This document shows, piece by piece, positions 189-6,257 of a DNA stretch of 6,257 bases (positions are counted from its first letter, which is position 1; each line of letters starts with the position of its first letter). The stretch lies in the NCBI GenBank assembly GCA_030685015.1, contig JAUXWS010000029.1:1-6257 (forward strand), written 5' to 3'. Under the pieces are notes generated by a model that worked only from the letters and a program-made list of their open reading frames with translations, had not been told where the DNA came from and did not search any database. Source of the stretch: a bacterium. Lineage in GTDB: Bacteria > CAIWAD01. A program made the position numbers and the translations under genes.

Positions 189-794
189 ATGAAGAAGGGT
201 TGGATCATCCTCATCGGTTTGCTGGTGGTGATCGTCCTGTTGGTGATGAGCGCCGTCGGCAAGTACAACACCCTGGTGACCCTGGACGAGGGCGTGACCG
301 GCCAGTGGGGCAACGTGGAGAACGTCTACCAGCGCCGGGCCGACCTCATCCCCAACCTGGTCGAGACGGTCAAGGGCTACGCCGCCCACGAGCAGGAGAC
401 CCTCACCGGCGTGATCGAGGCGCGGGCCAAGGCCACCCAGGTCAGCGCCGAGTTGACGCCGGAGGCGATGAACGATCCCCAGGCCCTGGCCAGGTTCCAG
501 GCCGCCCAGGGCGAACTGAGCAGCGCCCTCGCCCGCCTGATGGTGGTGGTGGAGCGCTATCCCGACCTCAAGGCGAACCAGAACTTCCTGGACCTGCAGA
601 CCCAGCTGGAAGGCACGGAGAACCGCATCGCCGTGGAGCGGCGCCGCTTCAACGACCTGGCGCGCGATTTCAACGCCGCCATCCGGCGCTTCCCGGCCAA
701 CTTCGTGGCGGGCATCGCTGGCCTGGGCAAGCACGCCTACTTCGAGGCCGAGCAGGGCGCCGAGAAAGCGCCCAAGGTCGACTTCGGCAAATGA
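189..794 (+). CDS. lemA: LemA family membrane protein
   Basis: This 201-residue protein is a full-length LemA-family member (family usually about 180-200 residues). Residues 4-24 form one hydrophobic N-terminal membrane segment. The family's signature block follows: YNTLVTLDEGV, then QWGNVENVYQRRADLIPNLV and ETVKGYAAHE at about residues 26-69. The remainder is helical and rich in Ala, Glu and Gln. It includes the conserved FLDLQTQLEGTENRIAVERRRFN region (about 133-155) and ends in a short tail after a FPANFVAGIAGL-like stretch. LemA proteins are single-pass membrane proteins with a helical soluble domain, and their molecular function is not firmly established. The ATG at 189 is set by an ideal Shine-Dalgarno. 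The gene heads a probable operon with two TPM-domain genes, a common LemA context. The family assignment is secure; the function is unknown. Confidence 0.95.
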   Translation: MKKGWIILIGLLVVIVLLVMSAVGKYNTLVTLDEGVTGQWGNVENVYQRRADLIPNLVETVKGYAAHEQETLTGVIEARAKATQVSAELTPEAMNDPQALARFQAAQGELSSALARLMVVVERYPDLKANQNFLDLQTQLEGTENRIAVERRRFNDLARDFNAAIRRFPANFVAGIAGLGKHAYFEAEQGAEKAPKVDFGK

Positions 795-807
795 TGGCCA
801 CGCCGGC

Positions 808-813
808 GGGGAG
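808..813 (+). promoter_or_regulatory. Ribosome binding site deciding the start of the first TPM gene
   Basis: GGGGAG lies 9 nt before the ATG at 823 but only 3 nt before an in-frame ATG at 817. Normal spacing favours 823, which removes only Met-Pro from the longer form. The next ATG, at 838, has no Shine-Dalgarno at a normal distance but would also keep the signal peptide. Confidence 0.5.
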
Positions 814-822
814 CCCATGCCC

Positions 823-1581
823 ATGAGCGCGCAACGCATGTCCTGGATCGCCGGCCTGGCGCTGCTCGTCGCCTTGGCGGCGGCCGCGCCCCTGCCCGCC
901 CCTCCCGCCCGCCATTTCGAGGACCGCGCCGGGCTGGTCGCTCCGGCCGAAGCCGCCCAACTCGCGGAACAGCTCTACGCTTTCGAGCAGCGCACGGGCA
1001 TCCAGTTCGTGGTGGCCGTGCTGCCCGACGTGGAGGATGAGATCACGGACTTCGCCAGCCGTCTTTACGAGCACTGGCGCATCGGCCAGCGCGACACCCA
1101 GCGGGGCGTCCTCTTCCTGGTGCTGCCCGGACAGGGCATGGCGCGCCTCGAGACCGGCTACGGCCTCGAGGAGAACCTGCCCGACATCGAGGCGGGACGC
1201 ATCCTGCGCGACATGCTGCAGGTGCCGCGGGAGCCGGCGGTGGCGCGCTTCCAATACGTCATGATCCGCGTCGCCCAGCGCATCGCGCCGGAGGATCCCC
1301 TCGCCCGCGGCGAACTGCCGGCGCGGCGCGGGGAGAATTCCATGCGGGGGCGGGGCGGCGGCCTGCTGGGCCTGCTGGTCCTGGTGGCCATCATGGCCCT
1401 GATCGCCGGCCGCGGACGCGGCGGCCGGGGCGGCGGCATGACGCCGCTCCTTATCGGCGCCATCCTCTCCCAGGCGACCCGGGGCGGTGGCGGCTTCGGC
1501 GGCCGGGGCGGCTTCGGCGGCGGCGGCTTTTCCGGGGGAGGCGGCTTCTCCGGCGGCGGCGGCGCCAGCGGGAGGTGGTGA
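823..1581 (+). CDS. TPM-domain protein with signal peptide and glycine-rich tail (YgcG-like)
   Basis: This 252-residue protein starts with a basic, hydrophobic leader (SWIAGLALLVALAAAA, about residues 7-22) that looks like a signal peptide with cleavage near the AAA-AP junction. Residues about 32-155 form a TPM domain: FEDRAGLV at the start, TGIQFVVAVLP, the WRIG motif, RGVLFLVLPG, then LETGYGLEENLPDIEAGRIL. A second hydrophobic stretch (about 181-196, GLLGLLVLVAIMALIAG) follows an Arg/Gly-rich linker. The tail (about 221-248) is almost all Gly with regularly spaced Phe and Ser, typical of this family. Members are exported or membrane-attached; phosphatase or membrane-protein maintenance roles have been proposed for TPM domains, but none can be assigned here. 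It lies 28 nt after LemA and 2 nt before the next gene, indicating co-transcription. An in-frame ATG at 817 is the alternative start. Confidence 0.9.
   Translation: MSAQRMSWIAGLALLVALAAAAPLPAPPARHFEDRAGLVAPAEAAQLAEQLYAFEQRTGIQFVVAVLPDVEDEITDFASRLYEHWRIGQRDTQRGVLFLVLPGQGMARLETGYGLEENLPDIEAGRILRDMLQVPREPAVARFQYVMIRVAQRIAPEDPLARGELPARRGENSMRGRGGGLLGLLVLVAIMALIAGRGRGGRGGGMTPLLIGAILSQATRGGGGFGGRGGFGGGGFSGGGGFSGGGGASGRW
1570..1577 (+). promoter_or_regulatory. Ribosome binding site deciding the start of the second TPM gene
   Basis: GGGAGGTG sits inside the last codons of the preceding gene, with its GGAGGT core 7 nt before the ATG at 1584. Two in-frame GTG codons at 1575 and 1578 overlap this site, so they are unlikely starts. 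The arrangement suggests translational coupling. Confidence 0.7.
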
Positions 1582-1583
1582 GC

Positions 1584-2042
1584 ATGGCGCGATCCGACAA
1601 GCCGGCCGAGTTCCTGACGGCGGCCGAGCAGGAGCAGGTGCGCGCCGCCGTGGCGGAGGCCGAGCGCGGCACCAGCGGGGAGATCCGCGTCTACCTGGAG
1701 CGCCGCATCCCCTGGTTCGGGCGCGACCCCTACCGCCGCGCCCGGCGCGTCTTCGTCATGCTGGGCATGCACGAGACGGAGGTTCACAACGGCGTGCTGG
1801 TCTACCTGGCCACTGCCTCCCACCGCTTCGCCATCGTGGGTGACGAGCGCCTCCACCAGATCGTGGGGGACCTGGGCTGGCACCGCATCGCCGACGCCAT
1901 GACCGCCCATTTCGCCGCCGACCGCTTCGGCGACGGGCTGGCCGAGGCCGTGCGCGCGGCGGGCGGGCAACTGGCCGAGTACTTCCCCCGGCATCCCGAC
2001 GACGTCAACGAGCTGCCCGACGAGATCCACTTCGGGCGCTGA
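1584..2042 (+). CDS. Short TPM-domain protein without signal peptide
   Basis: This 152-residue protein belongs to the short TPM-domain family that often follows LemA and the Gly-rich TPM protein. Recognisable blocks, in order, are: FLTAAEQEQVRAAVAEAE (about 10-27), TSGEIRVYLE (about 30-39), the RRVFVMLGMHET segment (about 54-65), HNGVLVYLATASHRFAIVGD (about 68-87), and the C-terminal FPRHPDDVNELPDEIHFG (about 133-150). It has no signal peptide or clear membrane segment, unlike its neighbour, and probably acts at the inner face of the membrane or in the cytoplasm. Its start two bases after the previous stop, with a Shine-Dalgarno inside the upstream gene, indicates coupling. Its activity is not established. 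The two TPM proteins are distinct subfamilies rather than a recent duplication, because their sequences align only over the general TPM core. Confidence 0.9.
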   Translation: MARSDKPAEFLTAAEQEQVRAAVAEAERGTSGEIRVYLERRIPWFGRDPYRRARRVFVMLGMHETEVHNGVLVYLATASHRFAIVGDERLHQIVGDLGWHRIADAMTAHFAADRFGDGLAEAVRAAGGQLAEYFPRHPDDVNELPDEIHFGR

Positions 2043-2063: not shown

Positions 2064-5000
2064 ATGACCCCTGCCCACGCCGAGTTCCTCGCCCGCTGGG
2101 CGGCCGCCACGGGCGGCGAGCGCGCCAACTACCAGCTCTTCCTCACCGAGTTGTGCGCCCTGCTGGATCTGCCCACCCCCGATCCGGCCAGCCGCGAGAC
2201 GGAGGAGAACACCTACGCCTTCGAGCGTCGCGTGGACCTGGCCGGCCCCGATGGCCGCGTCGCCCCCGGCTTCATCGACCTTTACCGGCGTGGCTGCTTC
2301 GTCTGCGAGGCCAAACAGACCGGCCTGGAGCTGGAGACGGGCGGCTGGGACAAGGCCATGCTGCGCGCCCAGGCCCAGGCCGAGCGCTACGCCCGCGCCC
2401 TGCCCGCCGCCGAGGGCCGCCCGCCCTTCCTCATCGTCACCGACGTGGGCCGCCACCTGGAACTCTACGCCGATTTCACCCGCAGCGGCGCCGTCTACAC
2501 GCCCTTCCCCGATTCCCGCCGCCACCGCATCCGCCTGGCGGATCTGGAGCGCCCGGAGATCCGCGAACTGCTGCGCGCCGTCTGGCTGGACCCCCTCGCC
2601 CTGGACCCGGCCCGCGCCAGCGCCAAGGTCACGCGGGAGATCGCCGCCCGCCTGGCGGACCTGGCGCGCAGCCTGGAGGGCGCCGGCCACCCGCCCGCCG
2701 CCACCGCCCAGTTCCTCATGCGCTGCCTCTTCAGCATGTTCGCCGAGGACGTGGGCCTCATCCCCGTCGACACCTTCAGCGGCCTGCTGCGGGACTTCCG
2801 CCGGGAGCCGGACAAGCTGCGCACCCTGTTGGAGCAGCTCTGGCAGACCATGGACCAGGGCGGCCTGTGGGGGCGCACGGCCGAGTTCCTGCTGCGCTTC
2901 AACGGCGGCCTCTTCCGCGACGTGCAGGCGCCGCTCCTGGCCAGGGAGCAGGTGGACCTGCTGTTGGAGGCGGCCCGCGCCGACTGGCGCCAGGTGGAAC
3001 CCTCCATTTTCGGCACCCTGCTCGAGCGCGCCCTGGACCCTGGCGAACGCCACAAGCTGGGCGCCCACTACACGCCCCGCGCCTATGTGGAGCGCCTCGT
3101 CCTGCCCACGCTGGTGGAGCCCTTGCGCGCCGACTGGCGGGACGCCCGCGCGGCGGCCCTGGCGCTGGAGCAACAGGGCCGGCCCAAGGAGGCCCTGGCC
3201 GAGCTGGAGGACTTTCTGCGCCGCCTCTGCGCCGTGCGCGTGCTGGACCCCGCCTGCGGCAGCGGCAACTTCCTCTACGTCGCCCTGGAGCACCTGAAGC
3301 GCCTGGAGGGCGAGGTCCTCTCCCTGTTGGCCGACCTGGGCGCCACCCATCGCCTGGAGTTGGAGCACGTCACGGTGGACCCCCACCAGTTCCTCGGCCT
3401 GGAGATCAATCCGCGCGCCGCCGCCGTGGCCGAGCTGGTCTTGTGGATCGGCTACCTGCAGTGGCACTTCCGCGTCCACGGCCACGTCCAGCCGCCGGAG
3501 CCCGTCCTGCGCGACTTCCGCAACATCCAGTGCCGCGACGCGCTGCTGGAGTGGGACGAACTCACCATCGCCACGGACGGGCAGGGCCGCCCCCTGACGC
3601 GCTGGGACGGCGTGACCACCAAGACGCACCCGGTGACGGGCCGCCCCGTGCCCGACGAGCGCGCCCAGGTGCCCGTGGAGCGCTATGTGAATCCGCGGAA
3701 GGCCCACTGGCCGGAGGCGGACTACGTGGTGGGCAATCCGCCCTTCATTGGCGACAAGCGCTTGAAGCAGGTGCTCGGCGAGGGCTACGTGGACGCCCTG
3801 CGCTCCACCTGGAAGGAGCTGCCCGAGTCCGCCGACTTCGTCATGCACTGGTGGCACATCGCGGCGGAGCTGGCGCGCGCGGGCAAGATCCAGCGCTTTG
3901 GTTTTATCTCGACCAATAGTCTGCGACAGATCTTCAATCGGCGCATCGTAGACGCGCATCTTGCCGCCAATCCGCCGTTGCGCCTGGCCTTCGCCATCCC
4001 CGACCATCCCTGGGTGGACAGCGCCGATGGCGCCGCAGTGCGTATTGCAATGACGGTGGGGACCGGTGAGAACGTTGAAGGTGACTTGCACACGGTGGCG
4101 GAGGAGCTTGCTGAGGGCTTGGACGGGGCGACCATAACACTGCTTGATCTGCGCGGTCAGATCAACGCGGATCTGACTATCGGCGCAGATTTGACAAGAG
4201 CGCGGCATCTGCAATCAAATGGTCATATAAGCTCCTTTGGTGTTTCACTGCATGGTGCGGGATTCATTGTGAATCCTGAAGAGGCGAAGATCCTCGGGCT
4301 TGGATGTGTGCTTGGTCTTGACCGACATATTCGTGCCTATCGAAATGGTCGTGACTTGATGGGACAGCCGCGTGGAGTCATGGTCATTGATCTTCTGGGG
4401 CTGACGGCGGAAGACGTCCGCACCCGCTTTCCATCTGTGTACCAGTGGGTGCTGGAGCGCGTGAAACCAGAGCGTGACCATAACAACCGGGCGAGTTACC
4501 GGGAAAACTGGTGGATTCATGCTGAACCTCGTCGCGAACTTCGACCTGCGCTTGAGGGCCTTTGCCGGTTCGTTGCAACAGCTGAAACAGCGAGGCATAG
4601 GATTTTTCAATTCCTTCCAGGGGAAATTCTGCCGGACCACAAGTTGATCGCCATTGCACTAGAAGACTCATTTTCACTTGGAGTGCTTTCCAGTCGTGTT
4701 CATTGTATCTGGGCACTTCGAAGTGGAGCATGGATGGGAATCGGCAACGATCCGGTTTACTCCAAGAGCAAGTGCTTCGAGCCGTTTCCTTTCCCAATAA
4801 CAGAGAATGTGATTCATAATCACTTGGTCGAGTTGGGCGAAGCCCTCGACGCCCACCGCAAGGCCCGCCAAGCCGCCCATCCCGGCCTCACCCTCACCGG
4901 CATGTACAACGTGCTGGAAGCCCTGCGCCAGGGCCGCCCGCTCACGGCCAAGGAGAAGGAGATCCACGAGCAGGGCCTCGTCTCCGTCCTGGGCAGCCTC

Positions 5001-5483
5001 CACGACGACATCGACCGCGCCGTGCTGGCGGCCTACGGCTGGGAGGACCTGGCCCCGGCGCTGGTGGGCAAGCCCGGCGGCACCCTGCCCCTGGCCAACC
5101 CGGACCCGGAGCAGGCCGCCGCCCAGGAGGAGCTGCTGGCCCGGCTGGTGGCCTTGAACGCCGAGCGCGCCGCCGAGGAGAAGCGCGGCCTGGTGCGCTG
5201 GCTGCGCCCGGACTTCCAGTGCCGCGACCGGGCCGCCGCCCCGCGCGGGGTGCAGACCGCCCTGGAAGTGGAGGCGGAGACGCCCGCCCCGTCACCGGGA
5301 GCGGGCACCGCGTCCGCCGCCCCCAAGCGCCCCTGGCCCAAGGCCCTCAAGGACCAGATCCGCGCCGTGCGCGAGGTCCGCGCCCAGGGCGCCACCACGG
5401 TGGAGGAGATCGCCGCCCGCTTCAAGCGCGGTCCGCTCAAGGGCGTGCAGGCGGTGCTGGAGGCGCTGGAGCTGCTGGAGTGA
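2064..5483 (+). CDS. MmeI-like type IIL restriction-modification enzyme (fused endonuclease, N6-adenine methyltransferase and TRD)
   Basis: This 1139-residue protein should both cut and methylate DNA. The N-terminal domain (about 20-150) has YQLFLTELCALLDLP, and FIDLYRRGCFVCEAK gives D72-x9-E82-A-K84, the spacing of the MmeI nuclease site. A helical connector (about 180-330) leads to GAHYTP (333-338), SAM-binding DPACGSGNF (395-403), GLEINPRAAAVAELVLWIGY (about 445-464) and catalytic NPPFIG (558-563), as in gamma-class adenine methyltransferases. The target recognition region (about 640-910) contains WWIHAEPRRELRPALEG, LGVLSSRVHCIWAL and CFEPFPFP. A Pro/Ala-rich linker (about 1055-1090) precedes a helical C-terminal domain beginning RPWPKALKDQIRAVREV. 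The start follows GGGAG by 6 nt, 21 nt after the TPM gene. No motif is broken. It is longer than MmeI (about 920 residues). BREX PglX or DISARM methylases are less likely: no partner genes are seen, and the nuclease motif fits type IIL. The recognition site is unknown. Confidence 0.9.
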   Translation: MTPAHAEFLARWAAATGGERANYQLFLTELCALLDLPTPDPASRETEENTYAFERRVDLAGPDGRVAPGFIDLYRRGCFVCEAKQTGLELETGGWDKAMLRAQAQAERYARALPAAEGRPPFLIVTDVGRHLELYADFTRSGAVYTPFPDSRRHRIRLADLERPEIRELLRAVWLDPLALDPARASAKVTREIAARLADLARSLEGAGHPPAATAQFLMRCLFSMFAEDVGLIPVDTFSGLLRDFRREPDKLRTLLEQLWQTMDQGGLWGRTAEFLLRFNGGLFRDVQAPLLAREQVDLLLEAARADWRQVEPSIFGTLLERALDPGERHKLGAHYTPRAYVERLVLPTLVEPLRADWRDARAAALALEQQGRPKEALAELEDFLRRLCAVRVLDPACGSGNFLYVALEHLKRLEGEVLSLLADLGATHRLELEHVTVDPHQFLGLEINPRAAAVAELVLWIGYLQWHFRVHGHVQPPEPVLRDFRNIQCRDALLEWDELTIATDGQGRPLTRWDGVTTKTHPVTGRPVPDERAQVPVERYVNPRKAHWPEADYVVGNPPFIGDKRLKQVLGEGYVDALRSTWKELPESADFVMHWWHIAAELARAGKIQRFGFISTNSLRQIFNRRIVDAHLAANPPLRLAFAIPDHPWVDSADGAAVRIAMTVGTGENVEGDLHTVAEELAEGLDGATITLLDLRGQINADLTIGADLTRARHLQSNGHISSFGVSLHGAGFIVNPEEAKILGLGCVLGLDRHIRAYRNGRDLMGQPRGVMVIDLLGLTAEDVRTRFPSVYQWVLERVKPERDHNNRASYRENWWIHAEPRRELRPALEGLCRFVATAETARHRIFQFLPGEILPDHKLIAIALEDSFSLGVLSSRVHCIWALRSGAWMGIGNDPVYSKSKCFEPFPFPITENVIHNHLVELGEALDAHRKARQAAHPGLTLTGMYNVLEALRQGRPLTAKEKEIHEQGLVSVLGSLHDDIDRAVLAAYGWEDLAPALVGKPGGTLPLANPDPEQAAAQEELLARLVALNAERAAEEKRGLVRWLRPDFQCRDRAAAPRGVQTALEVEAETPAPSPGAGTASAAPKRPWPKALKDQIRAVREVRAQGATTVEEIAARFKRGPLKGVQAVLEALELLE
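3897..4830 (+). other. Low-GC, atypical-codon segment covering the target recognition region
   Basis: Hand counts give about 55% G+C over 3901-4800 and about 52% over 4141-4800, against 68-78% in sampled rows on either side. The change begins within GFISTNS (about residues 612-619), where codons switch to AT-ended forms such as TTT, AAT and AGT. It ends near ALDAHRKARQ (about residues 927-936), where C/G-ended codons resume. Codons such as ATA (I722, I912), AGA (R712) and CTA (L866) occur here and were not noticed in the flanking parts of the gene. The reading frame is continuous. Bases 3961-4140 are intermediate (63-68%), so the left junction may be compound. The likely meaning is a module acquired by recombination. 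An AT-rich bias intrinsic to TRDs is the alternative. Confidence 0.7.
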
Positions 5484-5538: not shown

Positions 5539-6257
5539 TCAAGGAGCAAGTGCAACAGGTGGTGGCGTAGCTTGCGATTCGGACTCGGCGAGGTTTTTCT
5601 CGTATGAGGCGTAGACTTCCAAGGGGCACTTGAACCCATGGACTTTGCGCGGCCGGGTGTTGAGCATCCACTCGAAGGCGTCGAGTTGCTCCTGGCTGTA
5701 CTGGGACAAGTCAATGCCCTTGGGGAGGAACTGGCGGATCAGGCCGTTGGTGTTCTCGTTGGATCCGCGCTGCCAGGGGCTGTGGGGATCGGCGAAGTAG
5801 ATCTTCAAACCGGTGCGCTCTCCCAGGGCTTTGTGACACGCCATTTCCTTGCCTTGATCGTAGGTCAGGGTTTGGCGCAGACCGCGCGGGATGCGTTCGA
5901 AGGCCCTGCTGAAGCCCTCCAGCGCCGCTTCGGCAGTGGACGCGTCGAGCTTGACCAAGAGGACCAGGCGGCTGGAGCGCTCCACCAGCGTGCCGACGGC
6001 GGAGCGGTTTCCAGCGCCCTTGATCAGGTCCCCTTCCCAGTGACCTGGCACAAGCCGGTCTTCCACGTCCGGCGGTCGCACGTGGATGCTGACCATGTCC
6101 GGGATCTGGCCGCGACGGTCCTGGCCTTGCGAACGGGGGCGCCGCGCCTTGTGGCCCTGACGCAGATTGGCCAGCAGGTCGGTGCGCAGTTGACCCAGCG
6201 GCATGGCATAAAGCGCGGTGTAGATGGTCTCGTGTGACACCGTGCGCGTCCGATCGT
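5530..6257 (-). mobile_element. Partial IS30-family insertion sequence, transposase 3' end side
   Basis: The segment is defined by the IS30-type transposase it encodes. The end bordering the restriction gene probably contains the inverted repeat: on the minus strand the transposase terminates within GTTGCACTTGCTCCTTGA (5556-5539), and a TTGCACTT-like stretch near the tip recalls termini of some IS30 elements. The boundary at 5530 is approximate. The other end and its inverted repeat are outside the window, so repeat matching and target-site duplication cannot be tested. Confidence 0.6.
5539..6257 (-). CDS. IS30-family transposase, partial (N-terminus outside window)
   Basis: About 238 residues of a DDE transposase are visible. 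The frame is open to the window edge: the GTG at 6240 is the Val of VSHETIY, a conserved IS30 motif, not a start, and it is preceded in frame by DRTRT. Full-length relatives are roughly 320-380 residues, so the helix-turn-helix DNA-binding region is missing from view. The catalytic core is complete. Counting the Val at 6240 as residue 1, the acidic residues are D71 in HWEGDLIKG (codon 6030-6028), D128 in LTYDQGKE (5859-5857) and E162 in GSNENTNGLIRQ (5757-5755), giving the DD(33)E spacing of IS30. FADPHSPWQRG and FLPKGIDLSQYS are also family hallmarks. The product cuts and joins the IS ends during transposition. No frameshift or internal stop is seen, so it may be functional. It is convergent with the restriction gene. 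Confidence 0.93.
   Translation of the reverse strand, partial: DRTRTVSHETIYTALYAMPLGQLRTDLLANLRQGHKARRPRSQGQDRRGQIPDMVSIHVRPPDVEDRLVPGHWEGDLIKGAGNRSAVGTLVERSSRLVLLVKLDASTAEAALEGFSRAFERIPRGLRQTLTYDQGKEMACHKALGERTGLKIYFADPHSPWQRGSNENTNGLIRQFLPKGIDLSQYSQEQLDAFEWMLNTRPRKVHGFKCPLEVYASYEKNLAESESQATPPPVALAP

Follow-up and report, generated by a model that had tools for sequence, protein, structure and literature searches.

The MmeI-like restriction-modification (R-M) gene carried by the 6,257-base window that we analysed is a mosaic, in which a GC-poor cassette made up of the MTase tail and the TRD interrupts a GC-rich enzyme body. The best explanation, and one that we regard as probable, is that this cassette was exchanged. 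Codons about 612-919 would then derive from the corresponding part of a different member of the family, brought in by recombination with its left end in the conserved stretch RFGFISTNS and its right end in that at the border between PFPFP and the C-terminal helices. With a single TRD guiding both methylation and cleavage, the two specificities would change together, and the enzyme should remain self-consistent. We prefer exchange because the cassette is discordant with the copy in a congener, because cassettes are shuffled throughout the family, and because the same junction motifs recur elsewhere. Against it stand the GC-poor TRDs of the family at large, a TRD tree that keeps the window and its congener as sisters, a stretch of the TRD (residues 781-840) that stays near the congener, and the fact that the gene is found in one congener only.

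A single-chain enzyme of the MmeI family

The window is the whole of its source contig (G000:C29), which is complete at 6257 bases. Its R-M gene is one open frame (Table 1) and is an ordinary member of the known one-polypeptide type IIG (MmeI/type IIL-like) family. The product matches PADLOC PDLC03627 (REase_MTase_IIG) over residues 5-1138, that is, over its full length, with 1519 bits. Pfam matches are found to MmeI_N (1.6e-25), MmeI_hel and MmeI_Mtase (2.3e-34), and the match to MmeI_TRD is weak (21.4 bits vs a cut-off of 27). The MmeI_N and MmeI_Mtase matches place an N-terminal PD-(D/E)XK nuclease on the same chain as a gamma-class N6-adenine MTase. The nuclease residues D72, E82 and K84 are intact and are invariant in 30 homologues; MTase motifs I (DPACGSGNF, residues 395-403) and IV (NPPF, residues 558-561, within GNPPF) are likewise intact and conserved. 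An AlphaFold2 model of the 1139-residue protein (mean pLDDT 81) aligns to MmeI (5hr4; VIA-align) with a Z score of 31.8 over 712 residues, in an alignment that spans residues 188-1039 and reveals a single TRD of MmeI-like fold after the MTase. Structures consisting of an MTase only align to the model up to about residue 708, so the TRD proper occupies about 709-912; the C-terminal helices begin at about residue 915.

Table 1. Features of the window (positions in the 6,257-base stretch)
Feature	Position	Strand	Remarks
lemA-tpm-tpm genes (lemA and two TPM-domain genes)	189..2042	+	Upstream of the R-M gene; congeners have them without an R-M gene behind
MmeI-like type IIG (type IIL-like) R-M gene	2064..5483	+	ATG 2064 to stop 5483; one polypeptide, 1139 aa; PADLOC, Pfam, structure alignment
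Host-like N part, residues 8-611	2085..3896	+	PD-(D/E)XK nuclease, helical spacer, MTase motifs I and IV; GC3 0.957
Left junction, conserved RFGFISTNSLRQI stretch, about residues 609-621	3888..3926	+	Start range 609-612; one of three family left crossover clusters
Low-GC block, codons 612-919	3897..4820	+	End uncertain to 927 (nt 4844); ML changepoint; MTase tail (612 to about 708) and TRD (about 709-912); GC3 0.54
Right junction zone, residues 902-927	4767..4844	+	TRD end (CFEPFPFP) to first C-terminal helices; end range 919-927
Host-like C-terminal helical part, residues 928-1139	4845..5480	+	GC3 0.967; residues 928-1045 94% identical to congener
IS30-like transposase	5539..6255	-	Incomplete at contig end; rve domain; GC3 0.785

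A GC-poor block spanning the MTase tail and the TRD

A reading of the sequence alone had described a composition drop within this one uninterrupted gene, and sliding GC bears it out, falling from 0.70-0.75 to 0.50-0.56 and then returning above 0.70. The maximum-likelihood GC3 segment comprises codons 612-919, with a gain of 134 lnL and, within 2 lnL, a start at 609-612 and an end at 919-927. In nucleotides this is 3897-4820(4844), in agreement with the limits of 3897-4830 proposed earlier. GC3 is 0.539 inside the segment vs 0.958 outside. Four-fold sites repeat the drop (GC 0.99 in the N part, 0.47 in the TRD and 1.00 in the C part), so amino-acid composition is not its cause.

For a host null we drew on 235 kb of the same genome, in which 98 coding-like ORFs of at least 300 codons gave 947 windows of 309 codons. 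Their GC3 averages 0.885 (sd 0.064, minimum 0.576), and none of the 947 goes as low as 0.54. In 37 long host genes the steepest change of GC3 within a gene is -0.24, vs -0.42 in the R-M gene. Neighbouring genes have a GC3 of 0.91-0.96, comparable to the N and C parts of the R-M gene (Table 1).

The change had been said to fall exactly across the region that sets specificity. This is correct on the right, where the block ends at the border between the TRD and the C-terminal part, but not on the left, where it begins about 95 residues before the TRD, within the MTase domain at RFGFISTNS. The low-GC unit is therefore the MTase tail plus the TRD, not the specificity region alone. Both junctions do lie near conserved stretches, as the sequence-only reading proposed (FGFISTNS on the left; the region after FPFP on the right), and the same motifs mark the junctions of other swapped pairs.

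TRD exchange across the family

Exchange of TRDs as such is an already known phenomenon, and it is routine in MmeI-like enzymes; the window gene is probably a new instance. Across 80 homologues plus the window, pairwise identity in the N part correlates with that in the C part at r 0.65 and with that in the TRD at 0.10. Thirty-three other pairs combine an N identity of at least 0.88 and a C identity of at least 0.85 with a TRD identity of at most 0.60, and strains about 98% identical in the N part have TRDs that are 42-52% identical. Identities over N, TRD and C are 98/44/95% for a Thioalkalivibrio pair (L037/L049) and 98/51/99% for a Thauera pair (L046/L050). The DNA of the Thauera pair is 96.7% identical over a stretch that starts 1 kb before the gene and runs on into it, cannot be aligned over the TRD, and returns at 93.5%; judging from this alignment, the TRD has been replaced at one fixed locus.

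The left edges of the 33 swapped pairs cluster at residues 550-564 (around NPPFIG), 603-619 (FGFISTNS) and 654-670 (VRIAMTVG). The left edge of the window block falls on the second of these clusters, which accounts for 6/33 pairs. Right edges lie mostly at 882-908, with a few at 926-937, and that of the window is slightly past the main cluster. A separate observation concerns Marinobacter vinifirmus FB1, which has two copies of the enzyme (L062, L068) with N parts 91% identical and TRDs 54% identical.

We looked for a donor at the DNA and protein level in plasmids and phages, in viral contigs, and in the family to which the best TRD match belongs (399 genomes), and found none above 65%; in the collections searched, which are not exhaustive, the nearest TRD is 64-65% identical to that of the window. 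Contigs of the viral collection (L102-L113) carry relatives of the window TRD that reach up to 61%, and some copies of the enzyme may travel on putative phages or prophages.

Comparison with the congener

Among five genomes searched for the phylum the R-M gene is present in two, that of the window and G001, the sole congener with the gene (copy L002). The pieces of the congener genomes that we sampled share too few clear orthologues to yield a genome-wide identity. Identity between the window protein and L002 is 80% in the N part, 54% in the TRD (residues 670-915) and 94% in the C part (928-1045). When homologues are ranked by similarity to the window protein in successive windows, L002 comes first in the majority of windows of the N part and in almost every window of the C part. 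It drops to rank 41-63 at residues 701-780 and to rank 46-79 at 841-920, where other homologues reach 0.75-0.78; between these, at residues 781-840, it is again closest or near closest. Separate trees of the three parts, as the sequence-only reading had suggested, give a path from the window to L002 of 0.31 for the N part, 0.08 for the C part and 1.07 for the TRD, the last far above the others. The TRD tree nevertheless joins the window and L002 with an SH-aLRT of 88%, and AU tests of the TRD and of its thirds did not reject this grouping. Since the sister relation is left standing, the trees alone are no proof of exchange for this pair.

Horizontal replacement, the central proposal of that reading, thus draws its strength from the mosaic relation to the congener and from shuffling across the family, and not from the GC step, which is insufficient alone, nor from a donor. 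The DNA target may also have changed. At the positions aligned to MmeI contacts 773 and 810, the residues are H859 and V898 in the window protein, the same pair (H, V) in L022, and S and T in L002. This suggests that the DNA target of the window enzyme differs from that of L002; the alignment of contact residues is a distant one, used for comparison only and not to predict a target sequence.

It is possible, and we would give the idea appreciable if minority weight, that L002 received a new TRD instead of the window gene, or that both genes did so independently. The L002 TRD is also GC-poor (GC4 difference -0.38) and is at most about 55% identical to any other. On the other hand, the depression is deeper in the window and its boundary lies further upstream, at residue 612, whereas L002 keeps a GC3 of 0.85-0.90 up to about residue 660. 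A double replacement would agree both with the data and with exchange of the window cassette as the main explanation.

Genomic surroundings

The lemA-tpm-tpm genes that precede the R-M gene in the window are also found in G001 and G002, with no R-M gene next to them. By eye, from the translations, the genes that come next in G001 are DedA-like and sulfate-permease-like, and in G002 a RecC-like gene follows with little in between (L204; L205). The R-M copy of G001 is on a different contig, among toxin-antitoxin-like genes. Its setting (L130 4603-7843) includes an AbiEii-like nucleotidyltransferase, a PRiA4_ORF3-like protein and an HTH/MqsA-like regulator, and resembles a defence island. The differing loci and the empty lemA-tpm-tpm sites imply that the whole R-M gene is mobile in the genus, a point which the sequence-only reading missed. 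A search of G001-G003 for the IS30-like transposase of the window was negative; G000:C76 carries a degraded relative.

These observations raise a further reading, which overlaps with exchange of the cassette and differs in where and when it places the event: the gene could have arrived at its site whole, already with its present TRD, after a swap in an earlier host or location. We think this unlikely on balance. The different loci of the two congeners, the unoccupied sites and the IS30-like element adjoining the gene speak for it. However, GC3 in the N and C parts is as host-like as that of the neighbouring genes, and the nearest N and C parts are those of the congener, so that the backbone looks native to the genus and the TRD does not. 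The TRD swap may have taken place before the gene reached its present site.

GC depression of TRDs

The near-universal GC depression of the cassette was unexpected, and is a more interesting by-product than the exchange itself. In a set of 109 full-length homologues, the window counted in, GC3 of the TRD is below that of its own N part in 109/109 (mean -0.18), and four-fold-site GC is lower in 108/109 (mean -0.22). As controls, the two halves of the N part differ by -0.02 (sd 0.04) and the C part differs by about 0. When the homologues are clustered by N domain, the depression appears in 71/72, 50/51 or 35/35 clusters, and more distant MmeI-like genes have it in 15/17 cases (P 7e-4). TRD GC3 is lower in 6/6 low-GC hosts as well, few such hosts being in the sample. 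Invariant TRD columns are equally depressed (-0.225) and variable N columns show no depression, which rules out faster evolution or variable sites as the cause; the four-fold sites rule out amino-acid composition. A pure exchange pool, in which TRDs would be GC-richer than low-GC hosts, is not seen in these few (6/6 lower).

The sequence-only reading had named in advance, as something that would tell against an import, an AT bias of TRDs throughout the family whatever the host. Such a bias is largely what we find, so that the GC step, taken alone, argues only weakly for import. It still carries some weight. GC4 depression is deeper where the TRD conflicts with its N neighbours (-0.34 vs -0.17, P 3e-5), and at cluster level it tracks TRD discordance (rho 0.61, P 0.003), clustering being the only correction for phylogeny. 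The depth in the window is unusual, with a GC4 difference of -0.52 that is the third lowest of the 109. GC-poorer import sources would account for the lower values of swapped TRDs, not for the depression in low-GC hosts.

That no swap occurred at all, TRDs being GC-poor intrinsically or by a long-term process and those of the window and L002 being vertical sisters that diverged fast under selection for new specificity, fits the depression across hosts and clusters as well as the sister grouping, yet is improbable given that vertical-looking pairs with N identities of 0.79-0.82 (L079/L080, L057/L084) keep TRD identities of 0.68-0.79 vs 0.54 here, that this 54% accompanies a C part at 94%, that N and TRD identities are so loosely correlated in the family, and that the window lies far below the family mean.

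As to why TRDs should be GC-poor, bacterial mutation is biased towards AT (PMC2936535), and a correlation links GC to homologous recombination (PMC4450053). One speculative account, which we would not expect to prove right, is that MTase-tail/TRD cassettes form an allelic pool with its own composition, the members of which are too divergent to recombine, escape GC-biased gene conversion and drift to an AT-rich mutational equilibrium. As a hypothesis this fits the GC data and may merit attention. If true, TRD cassettes would be natural test blocks for a process that is debated in bacteria, and their depression could help to show whether GC in bacteria falls where homologous recombination is low. 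A literature search of partial coverage turned up no previous description of low GC in TRDs. For genome scans, the family-wide depression means that a TRD with a dip in GC should not on that ground alone be read as recently transferred.

Relation to known systems

Taken with the family data, the window gene illustrates how, in a large family of single-chain R-M enzymes, targeting cassettes are exchanged separately from the rest of the enzyme, with crossovers clustered at three conserved motifs. This movement is the natural counterpart of attempts to engineer the specificity of MmeI. PADLOC PDLC03627 is the window gene's own family, and we found no difference from it. MmeI itself (type IIL; PDB 5hr4) has the same arrangement of nuclease, helical spacer, gamma-class MTase, single TRD and C-terminal helices in one chain. 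It is about 20% identical to the window protein and shorter (919 vs 1139 aa), the C-terminal region of the window protein being longer. In MmeI one TRD serves both cutting and methylation, and the single recognition module lets MmeI-like enzymes evolve rapidly (PMC4833311). DISARM DrmMI and BREX PglX share a related gamma-class MTase and TRD; unlike these, the window protein has an N-terminal nuclease domain, and its contig has no DISARM or BREX genes. The closest precedent for the exchange comes from the type III Mod and type I/IIG S genes of Helicobacter pylori, in which TRD sequences move and the rest of the gene is kept; in the type III genes recombination, also between species, takes place where DNA of low similarity codes for conserved MTase motifs (PMC3983042, PMC3077401). 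The window enzyme differs from the Helicobacter pylori systems in being a single chain with one TRD, in which nuclease and MTase would be retargeted together.
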